Below are positions 32,289 through 60,767 of a DNA stretch of 64,000 nt, piece after piece (position 1 is the first letter of the stretch; every line of letters begins with the position of its first letter). A program made the position numbers and the translations under genes. Source of the DNA: Flavobacterium weaverense (lineage in GTDB: Bacteria; Bacteroidota; Bacteroidia; Flavobacteriales; Flavobacteriaceae). Below the pieces are notes generated by a model. The model ran no database searches and had not been told where the DNA came from. It saw only the letters and a list, made by a program, of their open reading frames with translations. Where the stretch lies: NCBI RefSeq assembly GCF_003688495.1, contig NZ_REFH01000007.1, forward strand, positions 62,001-126,000, read 5' to 3'.

Positions 32289-32613
32289 TCGATAGCCACA
32301 AAGACGCTAAGCCGCAAAGAAAAATATTGTGTTTTTCTAAAGTTTTTAAAGTTAAAATTTTCATTTCCAAAGGTTACATCTTGATTTTAGACTGAATTTC
32401 TCCCTGCTACTGAAGCTTTAGCCCAGATAGTAGTGGAAATCCTTTATCTTTTTTTTGAAAAAAAAAGATAAAGATTGCAGCGGATAGCTGGAAACAGCTC
32501 CAAAAAAAAATGAGGAAAAGATGTGCTGTTACAATGCTTCTTTCCTCGCAACAATTTACAAACAAACAAAAATAGCAAAGGGATTTGTTGTTTTAAAAAA
32601 ACCAAAAAAAATT
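32289..32613. other. nrdB-nrdA spacer with repeat fragments
   Basis: No gene. A GCCACAAAGACGCTAAGCCG-type fragment (about 32295-32320) and one copy of a REP-like element (32419-32501) fill the spacer. An in-frame start at 32521 would put 31 unrelated residues, partly repeat-derived, before the NrdA ATP cone, so I reject it. Confidence 0.6.
32419..32501 (+). repeat. REP-like intergenic element, copy A
   Basis: Begins TAGCCCAGATAGTAGTGG, has a long central hairpin (CTTTATC plus T8, single base, A9 plus GATAAAG) and ends GCGGATAGCTGGAAACAGCT. It aligns well with the reverse complement of 53994-54076 and loosely with 51904-51970. Confidence 0.7.
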
Positions 32614-51682: not shown

Positions 51683-52047
51683 GCTGAATGGAGTTGATTC
51701 CTTGTTAGATGTCAAATGCTTAGAAAGGTTTAACCATGCGTATAATGATTTGTTGCGCTTTTATTTTATTTAGGGTAGTTTTTTCACGAAGAAAGCGTAT
51801 TCTTTAGTTGCTCAGGAAGGACGAGTCAATTACACAATGACAAATAAAAGGGTGTAATTTAAAGATAAGTTGCATATTTATTGGCTGATTCTTTATGAAG
51901 CATGAGGGATAGCAGCGGCATCCTTTTGTGAAGCTTTAGCGGAACAAAAGATACAGCGAATAGCCCGACCCGCAGTTTTTACGTAGGGTCATGCCCAAAA
52001 AAACGCAATAGTAATGAATCTTAAACTTTGTTGTAAGACATTTACAA
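51683..52047. other. Spacer with a REP-like element
   Basis: No gene seen in this 365-base spacer. It holds the REP-like copy B (51904-51970) followed by a GGGTC / GACCC-rich inverted sequence, and otherwise AT-rich DNA. Confidence 0.6.
51904..51970 (+). repeat. REP-like intergenic element, copy B (divergent)
   Basis: GAGGGATAGCAGCGGCATCC, CTTTTG-type stem, then CAAAAGATACAGCGAATAGC. It keeps the paired TAGCAGCGGNATCC and GATNCAGCGNATAGC ends of copies A and C with a different loop. Confidence 0.55.
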
Positions 52048-53993: not shown

Positions 53994-54076
53994 GGAGCTA
54001 TTTCCCGCTATCCGCTACAATCTTTTTTTCATCGCAAGGGCGACTTAAAAAAGGATTTCCACTATTATCGGGGCTA
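53994..54076 (-). repeat. REP-like intergenic element, copy C
   Basis: On the minus strand it begins TAGCCCCGATAATAGTGG and ends GCGGATAGCGGGAAATAGCT, closely matching copy A at 32419-32501. It ends 18 bases before the phosphopantetheinyl transferase start, so that gene's promoter must lie in or near the element. Confidence 0.7.
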
Positions 54077-54093
54077 GAGATCACGATACTAAC

Positions 54094-56857: not shown

Positions 56858-56911
56858 AGTTTTCTTAAAGTAATGCTAACTTTCACAAAAAAGGATACTT
56901 TTACGCCAATT

Positions 56912-57649
56912 ATGAAAAATAGAAAGGAGAATATATACAACCAGATACTAAATGCTAAGCTAAACAGGCAAAAGTTACTGGCAATTCTACTGGATCCAGA
57001 CAAGATTATTTGGTCAGAAATAGATAATCTGATTGCTAAAATAAATCAATCACCTGCTTCACATGTTTTCATTGGCGGAAGCCTCGTTCAAAATAATATT
57101 TTAGACAAATTAATATTGAAAATAAAAGAGAGCTGCATTTTGCCCGTTGTTCTTTTTCCAGGTAATCCGTCCCAAATTTCTAATCAAGCTGATGGAATAC
57201 TATTTTTATCCTTGCTATCCGGGAGAAATTCTGATTATCTAATAGAACATCAAGTGCAGGCAGCGCCAATTTTAAAAGAAACCGATTTAGAAATTATTTC
57301 TACGGGTTATATATTGATAGAAAGTGGAAGCGAAACTGCGGTGCAACGTGTTAGCAAAACCAAACCATTAGATAGGAAAAATGATTCTTTAGCTTTGGCA
57401 ACAGCTCAAGCAGGTGAGATGCTTGGTAAAAAATTAATTTATCTAGAAGCTGGAAGTGGAGCTAAACAAGCGGTTCCTTTAACAATGATTGACTTAGTTT
57501 CTAGAAATATAGAAATTCCTTTAATTGTAGGTGGCGGAATTGTAAGTTTACAAGGGATTCAAGATGCGTATGAAGCGGGAGCTGATCTAGTCGTAATTGG
57601 AACTGCTTTTGAAAATAATATAGAATTTTTTAATTTGGATAAAATATAA
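56912..57649 (+). CDS. GGGP/heptaprenylglyceryl phosphate synthase family protein
   Basis: A 245-residue TIM-barrel enzyme of the PcrB/GGGPS family, which joins a polyprenyl diphosphate to glycerol 1-phosphate. Phosphate- and magnesium-binding segments are ILLDPDK (about residues 26-32), SHVFIGGSL, LFPGNPSQIS, GYILIESGSETAV, KLIYLEAGSGAKQAVP and IVGGGIVSLQGIQDAYEAGADLVVIGTAFE. The ATG at 56912 begins a clean domain start; 13 more codons are open upstream but lie closer to the divergent promoter. First gene of a run with pnuC and the kinase fusion. Confidence 0.92.
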   Translation: MKNRKENIYNQILNAKLNRQKLLAILLDPDKIIWSEIDNLIAKINQSPASHVFIGGSLVQNNILDKLILKIKESCILPVVLFPGNPSQISNQADGILFLSLLSGRNSDYLIEHQVQAAPILKETDLEIISTGYILIESGSETAVQRVSKTKPLDRKNDSLALATAQAGEMLGKKLIYLEAGSGAKQAVPLTMIDLVSRNIEIPLIVGGGIVSLQGIQDAYEAGADLVVIGTAFENNIEFFNLDKI

Positions 57650-57655
57650 ACTTTT

Positions 57656-58279
57656 ATGTTTGATTATTTTTTTGCTCAATATAGTACGTATCCACTTCAT
57701 GAAGTTTACTTAGAGCTTATTGCAGTGTTTTTTGGATTATGTAGTGTTTGGTATGCTAAAAAAGATAATATTTTAGTTTTTCCTACAGGATTAATAAGCA
57801 CTTCGATTTACGCCTATTTATTATGGCAGTGGAGTTTATTAGGCGATTCAATGATTAATGTGTATTATTTTATAATGAGTATTTACGGTTGGTATCATTG
57901 GACTCGTAAAAAAGATAACGTTGAAGAGTTTCCTATATCGATTATGACGTTAAAAGAGAAAAAGATGGCCGTAATTATTTTTATAGCTACTCTTGTTTTT
58001 GTTATACTAGTCTATTTGTATTTTAATAAGTTTACAAGTTGGTATTCCTATTTAGATACGTTACTGACGGGAATTTTCTTTGTAGGAATGTGGCTTATGG
58101 CCAAGAGAAAAATAGAAAACTGGATATTTTGGATTGTTGGAGACATACTTTCTATCCCACTGTATTTAGCAAAGGGATATACTTTTACTAGTTTTCAATA
58201 TATAGTATTTACAATTATTGCCATTTATGGCTATTTAGAATGGAGAAAAATCTTAAACAAAAAAAATCTGCCGTTATAA
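57656..58279 (+). CDS. pnuC: PnuC-family vitamin transporter
   Basis: A 207-residue inner-membrane protein with about seven hydrophobic segments. Family motifs are AVFFGLCSVWYAKKDNILVFPTGLISTSIYAYLLW, INVYYFIMSIYGWYHWTRK and WIFWIVGDILSIPLYLAKGYTFTSFQYIVF. PnuC proteins carry nicotinamide riboside, and Bacteroidota relatives (PnuT) carry thiamine. It starts 6 bases after the PcrB-like gene, and the NadR-type kinase overlaps its end by 40 bases. The kinase suggests nicotinamide riboside; the TPP-riboswitch receptor 1 kb beyond the fusion suggests thiamine. Confidence 0.9.
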   Translation: MFDYFFAQYSTYPLHEVYLELIAVFFGLCSVWYAKKDNILVFPTGLISTSIYAYLLWQWSLLGDSMINVYYFIMSIYGWYHWTRKKDNVEEFPISIMTLKEKKMAVIIFIATLVFVILVYLYFNKFTSWYSYLDTLLTGIFFVGMWLMAKRKIENWIFWIVGDILSIPLYLAKGYTFTSFQYIVFTIIAIYGYLEWRKILNKKNLPL

Positions 58280-60351
58280 AAATTGCATTGTTTGGTCCTG
58301 AAAGTACAGGCAAAACAACCTTAGCAAAACAACTCGCGGCGCATTATGAGACGGCTTGGGTTCCTGAATTTGCGAGGGATTATCTTCAGCAAAAATGGAA
58401 TGGAGGGAATCAAACTTGTGACATAATTGATATTTTACCTATTGCTTACGGCCAGGTGAAGTTAGAAAATGAGAGACTGGCTGTTGCCAATAAATATCTT
58501 TTTTGTGACACTAATATTTTGGTAACAAAGGTTTATTCTGAAGTGTATTATAACTTTTGCGAACCTATACTTGACGCTGCTGCGAAAGAGCATGAATATG
58601 ATTTGTTTTTTCTTACTGATATTGATGTGCCTTGGGAAAAAGATGACATAAGAGACAAAGCCGAAGGTCGTGAAAGTGTTTTTAAGATATTTAAAAAGTC
58701 ACTAGTTGACAATAAAAAACCTTTTATTAAACTAACTGGTAATAAAGAATTACGGCTAAAAATGGCAATTGCTATTTTAGAAGATTTATCTATCGCTAAA
58801 AGTTTAGGCTTTTCATCTACTGATTTTGTCCAAATCTATAATCATGGTATTGCAATAGCAAACATTCAAAAGCAACTGGAATTTCTAAAAACTGGAATTT
58901 CTAAAACGGTTTTAATCAGTCCAGCTTCTATCGATAATGGAATTTTGAAGCTTTCTGATGCTGATTTAAAAGACAAAGCTGATCTGTTCACTAGTAAGAA
59001 GCAATCTTTAACTTTATTAAAGTTTGTGCCTGCATCTGGCGCTGCAACTAGAATGTTCAAGTTCTTAATCACCTTTATTGAGGAATATAAGTTAGAAACA
59101 GAATCGATCAACGCATATATCAATAGGAAGAAAGACAGTGATTTGTCCCTTTTTATTATTGCTATGAACAAGTTTCCTTTTTTTGAGTTAATTGATCAAA
59201 AGCTAAGAACAGAGTTAGTGGATTTTGATTCTTTAGAAAATGATTGTAAGAATTATTATTTTATTAAAGAATTACTTTCCTCTACGGAATTTAATTATGC
59301 TAATAAGCCAAAAGCAATACTACCTTTTCATAAATATAAAAATACAATAGCAACTCCTGTTCAAGAACATTTGTATGAGTGCGCTTACTACGGAACTTCT
59401 AATGATAAGTCGCAGTTGCATTTCACAATTTCTGAAGAACATCAAAGTCAATTTGAGGAGATTGTCGGCTTGGTGAAAAATGACGTTCAAGAAAAGTTCA
59501 ACACTAATATAAATGTGAGCTATTCTTACCAAAATAAGAGTACTGATTCCATAGCAGTTGATTTAAATAATGAAGTACTTAGAGATAGAAATGGTACCTT
59601 GGTATTTAGACCTGGAGGTCACGGTTCGTTAATACAAAACTTAAATGATTTATATGCTGATATTATTTTTGTTAAAAATATTGATAACGTAATTCATAAT
59701 CATAGTGATAGAATTGCGCTTTACAAAAACGCATTAGCAGGAATACTTCTAGAATTGCAGCAGCAGATATTCACTTATTTACATTTAATAGAAAGTAAAG
59801 AATTAACAGAAAAAGAGATAGAGGAGATTTGTTCGTTTATGAGCTTGCAGTTGAATATTAAAGTTGCTCTAAGTAGTTTACCGTTGAGTGAAAAACTTCA
59901 ATATTTAAAAACCATGTTAAATAAACCAATTCGTGTATGTGGAATGGTGCAAAATGAAGGTGAGCCAGGAGGCGGACCATTCTGGGTTTTAGATAAAAAC
60001 GGAATAGTATCCTTGCAGATTGTTGAAAGTTCGCAAGTAGATTTAAATAATGAAGATCAAAAATATATTTTAAATACATCTACTCATTTTAATCCAGTGG
60101 ACTTAGTATGTGGAGTCAAGAATTATCAAAACGAAAAGTTTAATTTGGTTCAATTTGTTGATACTAATGCGGGCTTTATTGTCGAAAAAAATACTTTTGG
60201 CAAAAATATAAAATCCTATGAGTTACCTGGCTTGTGGAATGGAGCGATGGCAAACTGGATTAGTATTTTTGTTGAGGTGCCCTTAGTGACTTTTAATCCT
60301 GTTAAAACAGTCAATGATTTGTTGAAACCAGGACATCAGATTTCTAAATAA
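58240..60351 (+). CDS. NadR-type kinase fused to DUF4301
   Basis: A 703-residue fusion. Residues 14-185 are a P-loop kinase of the NadR type: IALFGPESTGKTTLAKQLA (Walker A at 19-26), YETAWVPEFARDYLQ, YLFCDTNILVTKVYSE and DIDVPWEKDDIRD. It would phosphorylate nicotinamide riboside or a similar nucleoside-like vitamin. Residues about 192-703 are DUF4301: QIYNHGIAIANIQKQLEFLKTG, KFVPASGAATRMFK (261-274), KPKAILPFHKY (356-366), RPGGHGSLIQNLNDL (457-471), VKNIDNV (478-484). KPKAILPFHKY and RPGGHGSL recall nucleotidyltransferases. I recall these as separate genes elsewhere. It overlaps pnuC by 40 bases. Confidence 0.88.
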   Translation: MEKNLKQKKSAVIKIALFGPESTGKTTLAKQLAAHYETAWVPEFARDYLQQKWNGGNQTCDIIDILPIAYGQVKLENERLAVANKYLFCDTNILVTKVYSEVYYNFCEPILDAAAKEHEYDLFFLTDIDVPWEKDDIRDKAEGRESVFKIFKKSLVDNKKPFIKLTGNKELRLKMAIAILEDLSIAKSLGFSSTDFVQIYNHGIAIANIQKQLEFLKTGISKTVLISPASIDNGILKLSDADLKDKADLFTSKKQSLTLLKFVPASGAATRMFKFLITFIEEYKLETESINAYINRKKDSDLSLFIIAMNKFPFFELIDQKLRTELVDFDSLENDCKNYYFIKELLSSTEFNYANKPKAILPFHKYKNTIATPVQEHLYECAYYGTSNDKSQLHFTISEEHQSQFEEIVGLVKNDVQEKFNTNINVSYSYQNKSTDSIAVDLNNEVLRDRNGTLVFRPGGHGSLIQNLNDLYADIIFVKNIDNVIHNHSDRIALYKNALAGILLELQQQIFTYLHLIESKELTEKEIEEICSFMSLQLNIKVALSSLPLSEKLQYLKTMLNKPIRVCGMVQNEGEPGGGPFWVLDKNGIVSLQIVESSQVDLNNEDQKYILNTSTHFNPVDLVCGVKNYQNEKFNLVQFVDTNAGFIVEKNTFGKNIKSYELPGLWNGAMANWISIFVEVPLVTFNPVKTVNDLLKPGHQISK

Positions 60352-60365
60352 AAAATTTACATGCA

Positions 60366-60767
60366 ATGGAAATAGATAAAATTTTATCTGAAGTTACTTA
60401 TAAAGCGGTTCGAAGCAGCGGAGCGGGAGGGCAGAACGTAAACAAAGTTTCTTCAAAAGTGGTACTGAGTTTTGATTTAAAAAATTCTCAAGCACTTTCT
60501 GATGAAGAGAAGTTGCTTTTAGAAACTAATTTGTCGTCGAGGTTAACTAACGATTTAGTCTTAATTTTAAATTGTGACGAAGATAGAAGCCAACTGAAAA
60601 ATAAAGAAATTGTAACAAAGCGCTTTTTGGCTATTGTGAAAAATGGCTTGATAATTCCCAAGGAACGAAAACCAACAAAAATTCCTAAATCGGTAATTAG
60701 AAAGCGAATAAAGTATAAAAAAACTATTTCTGAAATTAAGAAGACAAGAAGAAAGCCTGACTATTGA
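60366..60767 (+). CDS. arfB: ArfB-type peptidyl-tRNA hydrolase
   Basis: A 133-residue ribosome-rescue factor. RSSGAGGQNVNKVSSKV holds the GGQ that hydrolyses peptidyl-tRNA on stalled ribosomes. The C-terminal tail is strongly basic (ERKPTKIPKSVIRKRIKYKKTISEIKKTRRKPDY), as needed to enter the empty mRNA channel. There is no codon-recognition domain, so it is not a standard release factor. It starts 14 bases after the kinase fusion and may share its transcript. Confidence 0.93.
   Translation: MEIDKILSEVTYKAVRSSGAGGQNVNKVSSKVVLSFDLKNSQALSDEEKLLLETNLSSRLTNDLVLILNCDEDRSQLKNKEIVTKRFLAIVKNGLIIPKERKPTKIPKSVIRKRIKYKKTISEIKKTRRKPDY

Follow-up and report, generated by a model that had tools for sequence, protein, structure and literature searches.

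A NadR-type kinase fused to a DUF4301 domain of predicted UDP-sugar-pyrophosphorylase-like fold in Flavobacterium weaverense

Kinases and nucleotidyltransferases are found in one chain in the bifunctional fucokinase/GDP-fucose pyrophosphorylase, where a kinase and a sugar nucleotidyltransferase act in series on one sugar. We examined a 64,000-nucleotide (nt) stretch of Flavobacterium weaverense (contig NZ_REFH01000007.1, positions 62,001 to 126,000 of the forward strand; hereafter the window), in which a single gene joins a NadR-type kinase to DUF4301 (PF14134). Its kinase half aligns with the C-terminal NadR domain and is encoded beside the transporter gene pnuC; unlike NadR, the window protein has no nicotinamide mononucleotide (NMN) adenylyltransferase domain, and its partner has another predicted fold and stands on the other side of the kinase. 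It differs from fucokinase/GDP-fucose pyrophosphorylase in that its kinase is of another fold and a shared pathway of the two halves is not supported.

The closest described relatives of the DUF4301 half appear to be UDP-glucose, UDP-GlcNAc and UDP-sugar pyrophosphorylases (i.e. UGP, UAP1/AGX and USP; PF01704), with which DUF4301 has in common a predicted GT-A core and the order of its motifs. Those shared with UGP-type enzymes are PK, PGHG, N-x-D-N, the glutamate of the LLExAQ strand and F-x-P-V-K-x-x-x-D-L-L. No function of DUF4301 was described in the literature searched, most subscription papers lying outside it; the family was named there only as one line of a table on the rumen metaproteome, for Prevotella ruminicola (PMC7035244), and the identifier PF14134 was not mentioned. 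Relative to that literature the fold assignment is new. At a probability of about two in three, the window protein combines a nicotinamide riboside kinase with a UDP-sugar-pyrophosphorylase-like domain, joined for co-expression or tethering and not for a shared two-step reaction, as judged from sequence comparison and predicted structure.

The fusion gene and its kinase half

A first-pass annotation of the window had described an uninterrupted frame of 703 codons joining a P-loop kinase to a complete DUF4301 region. The translation is indeed free of stops, and the Walker A motif and the Pfam match to DUF4301 lie where they had been placed; the two segments singled out within DUF4301, KPKAILPFHKY and RPGGHGSLIQNLNDL, are present at aa 356-366 and 457-471. 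The principal features are given below, A3 being an alignment of 27 fused proteins.

58240..60351, forward strand: kinase-DUF4301 fusion gene, 703 aa, from an ATG start to a stop codon at the end of this range
58279..58749, forward strand: NadR-type ribosylnicotinamide kinase domain, aa 14-170 (AAA_28, E 1.6e-40)
58294..58317, forward strand: Walker A motif GPESTGKT, aa 19-26, read in the protein sequence
58501..58515, forward strand: probable Walker B motif FCDTN, aa 88-92 (D90 and T91 invariant in A3)
58630..58656, forward strand: probable lid segment PWEKDDIRD, aa 131-139, aligned to WVDDGLR of 1lw7
58795..58824, forward strand: junction, aa 186-195, with helices 169-188 and 193-202 in the full-length model
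58816..60339, forward strand: DUF4301 domain, aa 193-700, UDP-sugar-pyrophosphorylase-like (PF14134, E 7.3e-200; predicted model)
57656..58279, forward strand: pnuC, nicotinamide riboside transporter family (PF04973, E 2.5e-55; TIGR01528, 111.5 bits, cut-off 42.45)

The PF14134 match scored 665.5 bits against a cut-off of 27 and spanned profile positions 2-507 of 507, the C-terminal 508 residues of the window protein being equivalent to a full-length member of the family. In the predicted model of the full chain (predicted local distance difference test, pLDDT, 85.6; predicted TM-score, pTM, 0.80), the C-terminal helix of the kinase continues almost straight into DUF4301.

The comparisons support assignment of the first half to the NadR-type kinases. 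Besides the AAA_28 match, it aligned with the kinase part of TIGR01526 (positions 162-320 of 325, E 7.1e-29, under the curated cut-off) and with PDB entries 9x6f (E 1.4e-21) and 1lw7 (E 1.1e-14). Residues G19, P20, E21, S22, G24, K25 and T26 of the Walker A motif were invariant in A3. The fusion protein had no PF01467 match at E up to 1, and the adenylyltransferase part of TIGR01526 was unmatched. The final 40 nt of pnuC overlap the start of the fusion gene. Window PnuC carries W..W at residues 79-82, and a GW..W motif is present in 75 of 76 PnuC relatives; we take this motif to be a mark of riboside-type transporters. From its family, its intact Walker A motif and its PnuC neighbour, the kinase half probably phosphorylates nicotinamide riboside, and the arrangement of the operon suggests that it would trap the riboside imported by the adjacent PnuC.

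Predicted fold and proposed active site of DUF4301

Structural comparisons used a model of the DUF4301 domain (pLDDT 90.2, pTM 0.89) built from A2, an alignment of the window domain and 65 relatives (66 sequences). The first-pass annotation had likened DUF4301 to nucleotidyltransferases and proposed structure prediction as a check; on the predicted model this likeness is borne out, with a match to the GT-A-type core and with UTP:sugar-1-phosphate enzymes as the closest structures. UAP, UGP or USP entries made up the first 38 of the 50 rows shown by Foldseek against the PDB (best row: E 4.0e-9, probability 1.00, query TM-score, TMq, 0.48). VIA-align superposed the model on Arabidopsis UGP (2icx) with a Z of 20.3 and a root-mean-square deviation of 3.6 over 334 residues, and gave similar values for human UGP, Leishmania UGP and human AGX2; GlmU rows reached at most Z 16.4 (236 residues), below most UGP/UAP rows.

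Sequence comparisons were made with A2 and with A1, a set of 17 diverse DUF4301 sequences. The Pfam UDPGP family (PF01704) matched 7 of the 17 A1 members, with a best E of 9.1e-5, while the other non-self families listed matched one each. Profile-profile comparison of A1 with six UGP sequences gave a score of 45.6 (P 6.2e-5, probability 64.8%); the highest of 60 column shuffles scored 24.5 and the reversed control 21.4. This evidence for kinship with UDPGP is independent of the fold evidence but weak.

The proposed active site was derived from the 13 substrate residues given for Aspergillus nidulans UGP in PMC10470519, whose motifs can be recognised in actual UGP sequences. Ten of these have identical counterparts that are invariant in both A1 and A2: Lys135-K169, Gln198-Q242, Gly227-G271, His228-H272, Asn256-N291, Asp258-D293, Glu307-E407, Asn329-N429, Lys403-K500 and Gly124-G78, where Gly124 and Gln198 were placed by motif only (DUF4301 residues carry domain numbers, to which 189 is added for the residue number of the window protein). 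The corresponding segments are as follows, 'invariant' referring to A1 and A2.

59029..59055, forward strand: probable nucleotide-binding loop PASGAATRM, aa 264-272, which follows the first core strand (predicted at domain residues 70-74); P75, A76, S77, G78, A79, A80, R82 and M83 invariant
59308..59313, forward strand: PK, aa 357-358, counterpart of UGP Lys135 (hhalign); P168 and K169 invariant
59530..59532, forward strand: Gln431, proposed uracil-binding residue, counterpart of UGP Gln198 (motif and predicted strand); Q242 invariant
59608..59625, forward strand: RPGGHG, aa 457-462, counterpart of UGP PPGHGD with Gly227 and His228 (hhalign, hmmsearch); R268, G271, H272 and G273 invariant
59674..59688, forward strand: KNIDN, aa 479-483, counterpart of UGP N-x-D-N with Asn256 and the Mg-binding Asp258 (hhalign, A2 only); K290, N291, D293 and N294 invariant
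60013..60036, forward strand: LQIVESSQ, aa 592-599, counterpart of UGP LLExAQ with the sugar-binding Glu307 (hmmsearch, UGP profile); E407 and Q410 invariant
60085..60093, forward strand: HFN, aa 616-618, counterpart of UGP FNTNN with Asn329 (hmmsearch); F428 and N429 invariant
60292..60324, forward strand: FNPVKTVNDLL, aa 685-695, counterpart of the UGP lysine motif F-x-P-V-K-x-x-x-D-L-L with Lys403 (hhalign, hmmsearch); F496, P498, V499, K500, D504 and L505 invariant

Alignment by hhalign with both profiles supported PK, PGGHG and FNPVKxxxDLL, and hmmsearch supported LQIVESxQ and HFN and gave further support to PGGHG and the lysine motif. The pairings of the nucleotide loop (Gly124, Gly123 and Leu121) and of Gln198 rest on motif and predicted strands. 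The loop, reading SGAATRM, is closer to the AAGxGTRM of GlmU-type enzymes. In VIA-align, the aligned GlmU ranges begin at residues 65-69 of the DUF4301 model and 4-6 of the GlmU chains. The UGP nucleotide loop begins with GGxG according to PMC8222925, a start that DUF4301 lacks, PASGAATRM standing in its place.

This layout is that of UTP:sugar-1-phosphate pyrophosphorylases, and DUF4301 is expected to be a UTP-dependent sugar-phosphate nucleotidyltransferase, a divergent relative of the UDP-glucose, UDP-GlcNAc and UDP-sugar pyrophosphorylases, although its activity and its choice of UTP are read from sequence and model. The domain would bind UTP together with a sugar-1-phosphate or a similar phosphate, Asp482 would act with Mg2+, Lys358, His461 and Lys689 would lie around the phosphates of the substrates, and a nucleotide sugar and pyrophosphate would be released.

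Several observations weigh against this assignment. The window's own DUF4301 domain had no match to Pfam UDPGP at E up to 10, and one relative scored 18.5 bits against PF01704, under the cut-off of 22. The narrower A2 profile reached a score of 31.2 (probability 6.7%) as compared to at most 28.4 for shuffled columns, and little weight is placed on it beyond its alignment of N-x-D-N. When the A1 profile was run against PDB sequences it returned no chain at E up to 10, so that the fold assignment rests on the predicted fold, the weak UDPGP matches and the motifs. TM-scores were moderate (TMq 0.48 in the best row) and identity to UGP-type chains was 9-18%. Three of the 13 UGP residues are unmatched, namely Leu121 (P75), Gly123 (S77, small for small) and Asn331, whose counterpart is a valine (V431). 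Neither the nucleotide loop nor the uracil-binding glutamine is pinned by hhalign, which aligned N-x-D-N with A2 and left it unaligned with A1. An 84-residue gap separates the nucleotide loop from PK, and a helical stretch at about domain residues 300-370 is unmatched by the profile alignment. As further differences from UGP-type enzymes, DUF4301 has nothing beyond the lysine motif, and the C-terminal part of the UGP chains falls outside the aligned ranges.

Linkage, fusion and kinase loss

Conservation of the locus was examined in 80 loci, which were retained from a set of 584 or more confirmed relatives in genome contigs; the contig titles name Flavobacteriaceae genera or uncultured Bacteroidetes bins and, for one bin, Klebsiella. 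PnuC adjoined DUF4301 in 76 of the 80, one of the remaining four being a contig that starts 60 nt upstream. A kinase was fused to DUF4301 in 26 loci, separate in 38 and absent from 12. Separate kinase and DUF4301 genes overlapped by at least 1 nt in 26 of the 38 pairs, 18 of these by 4 nt, as measured from the first possible start codon; with such an overlap, one small indel can fuse them. In a phylum sample, DUF4301 was present in 32 of 198 genomes. Ten of these (the window's own included) belong to the genus of the window, with eight fused and two lacking a kinase at the locus; PnuC, kinase and DUF4301 were separate neighbours in all six genomes from other genera of the family, and in the 16 from other families the five frames flanking DUF4301 on each side held no homologue of PnuC or the kinase. 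Fused forms also occur in six further genera (6/6 of the long-frame rows outside the genus, among the rows listed). The single frame is thus no sequencing accident, and the survey of fused or adjacent pairs proposed by the first-pass annotation indicates that the linkage is conserved within the family. DUF4301 itself was found in 179 genomes of a 199-genome sample of the genus, and in 167 of an equally large sample of the family; members listed from outside the genus are mostly single-domain by frame length.

Within the genus, 150 DUF4301 rows were transcribed and the length of the open frame was used as a proxy for fusion: 108 frames were of at least 690 codons, 7 of 640-689 and 35 shorter. 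Seven genomes (L170-L176), comprising six of the seven in the 640-689 band and one of the 108 long frames (G385), appear to carry kinase relics, i.e. 107-125 in-frame residues ahead of DUF4301. Taken without their DUF4301 residues, the relics matched 50 kinases with a score of 60.9 (P 1.2e-9) as against at most 19.9 in 60 shuffles; a P-loop was present in none of the seven and in all 50 kinases, and four of the seven relics lay singly inside the HMMER inclusion threshold of the kinase profile and three outside. The 12 named loci that keep PnuC and DUF4301 and lack the kinase are L046, L048, L054, L057, L059, L060, L064, L073, L083, L091, L102 and L106. In 11 of these, the DUF4301 frame starts with ME inside the 3' end of pnuC, an overlap also shown by the kinase start of fused genes; selection on pnuC, which is encoded by those bases, could be what keeps this start.

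A tree of 101 DUF4301 domains was made by a quick method, with some rows perhaps representing one species. The window's genus formed a clade of 47 rows (support 99) with 22 fused, 18 kinase-less and 7 relic rows and no separate pair, the relics forming a single clade (support 98). Fused rows fell at four places (i.e. the genus clade; Croceivirga with L165; L166-L168; L169), which suggests about four origins of fusion and a genus ancestor that was probably fused. The kinase-less rows need five changes on the tree, two of them forced by well supported branches. Fusion would thus have arisen several times from a tightly packed, often overlapping row of pnuC, kinase and DUF4301 genes. Its recurrence indicates that making both halves together is tolerated or useful, while the recurrent loss of the kinase indicates that DUF4301 has work of its own.

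The AAA_28 and PnuC family searches (INDEPENDENCE) covered 22 genomes. None of the ten DUF4301 genomes of other classes had a PnuC or AAA_28 match at E 1e-6, other kinase families not being sought. In all six genomes from four other families of the class, PnuC and the kinase were neighbours on a different contig from DUF4301, and three sampled Flavobacteriaceae genomes with no DUF4301 match also had the pair. Two genus members lacking a kinase at the locus each have two AAA_28 genes elsewhere; the window kinase found one of these four by phmmer, and this match was weak and of partial length (E 3e-5), so no clear orthologue of the kinase is left in those genomes.

The genes that flank the row are also syntenic, so linkage alone proves little: homologues near DUF4301 were of the RF-1 type in 63, TonB in 60 and PcrB in 56 of the 80 loci, contig ends not being allowed for. 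In the window they are as follows, with a TonB-receptor-like gene (by reading) also downstream of the fusion gene.

56873..57649, forward strand: PcrB-family gene, upstream neighbour (PF01884, E 1.4e-34)
60366..60767, forward strand: RF-1-domain (ArfB-like) gene, downstream neighbour (PF00472, E 2.1e-14)

The gene could instead be a fusion of convenience, in which two unrelated housekeeping enzymes became joined through gene overlap with no selective meaning. The frequent overlaps of the separate pairs, the synteny of RF-1-type, TonB and PcrB genes that have no obvious shared function, and the loss of the kinase from several lineages are all consistent with it; some four origins and long frames in up to 107 of 150 genus rows exceed a single accident. 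We regard this explanation as tenable but somewhat less probable than even.

Outside the family, the neighbours of DUF4301 gave no consistent clue to a substrate; by reading of sequence, two genomes have 5-oxoprolinase-like genes there and a different two have cation efflux genes. A scan of a viral contig set confirmed no DUF4301 relative. Three fecal 'phage' contigs carry DUF4301; in the two examined (L137 and L163) the other genes are of bacterial-chromosome type by reading, relA, purT and ispE among them, and these contigs were taken for bacterial DNA. A contig titled as a Klebsiella pneumoniae metagenome-assembled genome (L049) carries the full Flavobacterium-type PcrB-PnuC-kinase-DUF4301-RF1-TonB locus, so its bin or label is probably wrong. 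In another family of the phylum, a 1114-aa open frame (L131, 1-2175) has a UDPGP-like part (PF01704, E 1.2e-10) that by reading follows a kinase-like stretch, and is perhaps another kinase-pyrophosphorylase fusion.

A reading of PnuC as a thiamine transporter (PnuT) was considered and rejected: the window contains no riboswitch at the Rfam threshold, only three Flavo-1 RNAs, each above the Rfam gathering score.

32416-32498, forward strand: Flavo-1 RNA motif
51895-51974, forward strand: Flavo-1 RNA motif
53997-54079, reverse strand: Flavo-1 RNA motif

The second and third of these lie about 2 kb apart on opposite strands, flanking a small membrane-protein gene and a gene read as S-adenosylhomocysteine hydrolase.

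Function of the two halves

The fusion most likely reflects co-expression or tethering, since DUF4301 is also found where the kinase is missing and persists after the kinase has gone. On the simplest account, the two halves are enzymes that act on different substrates and are expressed together from a single row of genes. The recurrence of fusion weighs against so complete a separation and argues for some functional tie to the kinase.

DUF4301 might instead be catalytically inactive and use its pyrophosphorylase-like fold for binding or regulation, as its lack of a known activity, its atypical nucleotide loop and its large helical insertions would allow. This is unlikely, given that the residues corresponding to catalytic and metal-binding positions do not vary in either the 17 diverse or the 66 family sequences.

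The first-pass annotation had proposed a two-step vitamin enzyme, in which the kinase makes a riboside phosphate (e.g. NMN) to which DUF4301 adds a nucleotidyl group. Two elements of the proposal stood, the predicted nucleotidyltransferase fold, which gives a useful clue to the kind of fold in DUF4301, and the linkage, conserved in the order PnuC-kinase-DUF4301 and accompanied, as the tree suggests, by several origins of fusion. The window genome (99.87% complete) also has no NadA match, so salvage may matter; the cell may obtain quinolinate by a different pathway or import NAD precursors. Consecutive steps on a riboside are not supported. The active site resembles that of UTP:sugar-1-phosphate enzymes and not that of NMN adenylyltransferases, and no PF01467 domain is present. 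DUF4301 occurs with no PnuC or AAA_28 match in the ten sampled genomes of other classes, and PnuC-kinase pairs occur unlinked to DUF4301 or in genomes that lack it. Moreover, the kinase has decayed or been lost where DUF4301 is kept, in two cases with no clear orthologue elsewhere, and the window genome has a separate gene read as NadD and matches to the NadC-type, NAD synthase and NAPRTase families. A shared two-step reaction is therefore quite improbable.

Least probable of all is that DUF4301 is an active uridylyltransferase on a substrate derived from imported nicotinamide riboside, converting, for example, ribose-1-phosphate, as released by a phosphorylase, to UDP-ribose or NMN to a nicotinamide-uridine dinucleotide; were it so, the kinase would control the partition between NMN and a new nucleotide, and this would account for the recurrent fusion as well as for species that retain PnuC and DUF4301 but no kinase.

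With separate substrates for a riboside kinase and a UDP-sugar-pyrophosphorylase-like partner as the preferred reading, repeated fusion still leaves room for some functional tie between the halves. The predicted fold and nearly complete active site make DUF4301 a testable enzyme. The locus further offers a compact example of how domains evolve, in which overlapping genes have been fused repeatedly and the kinase has decayed or been lost while its partner stays in frame.

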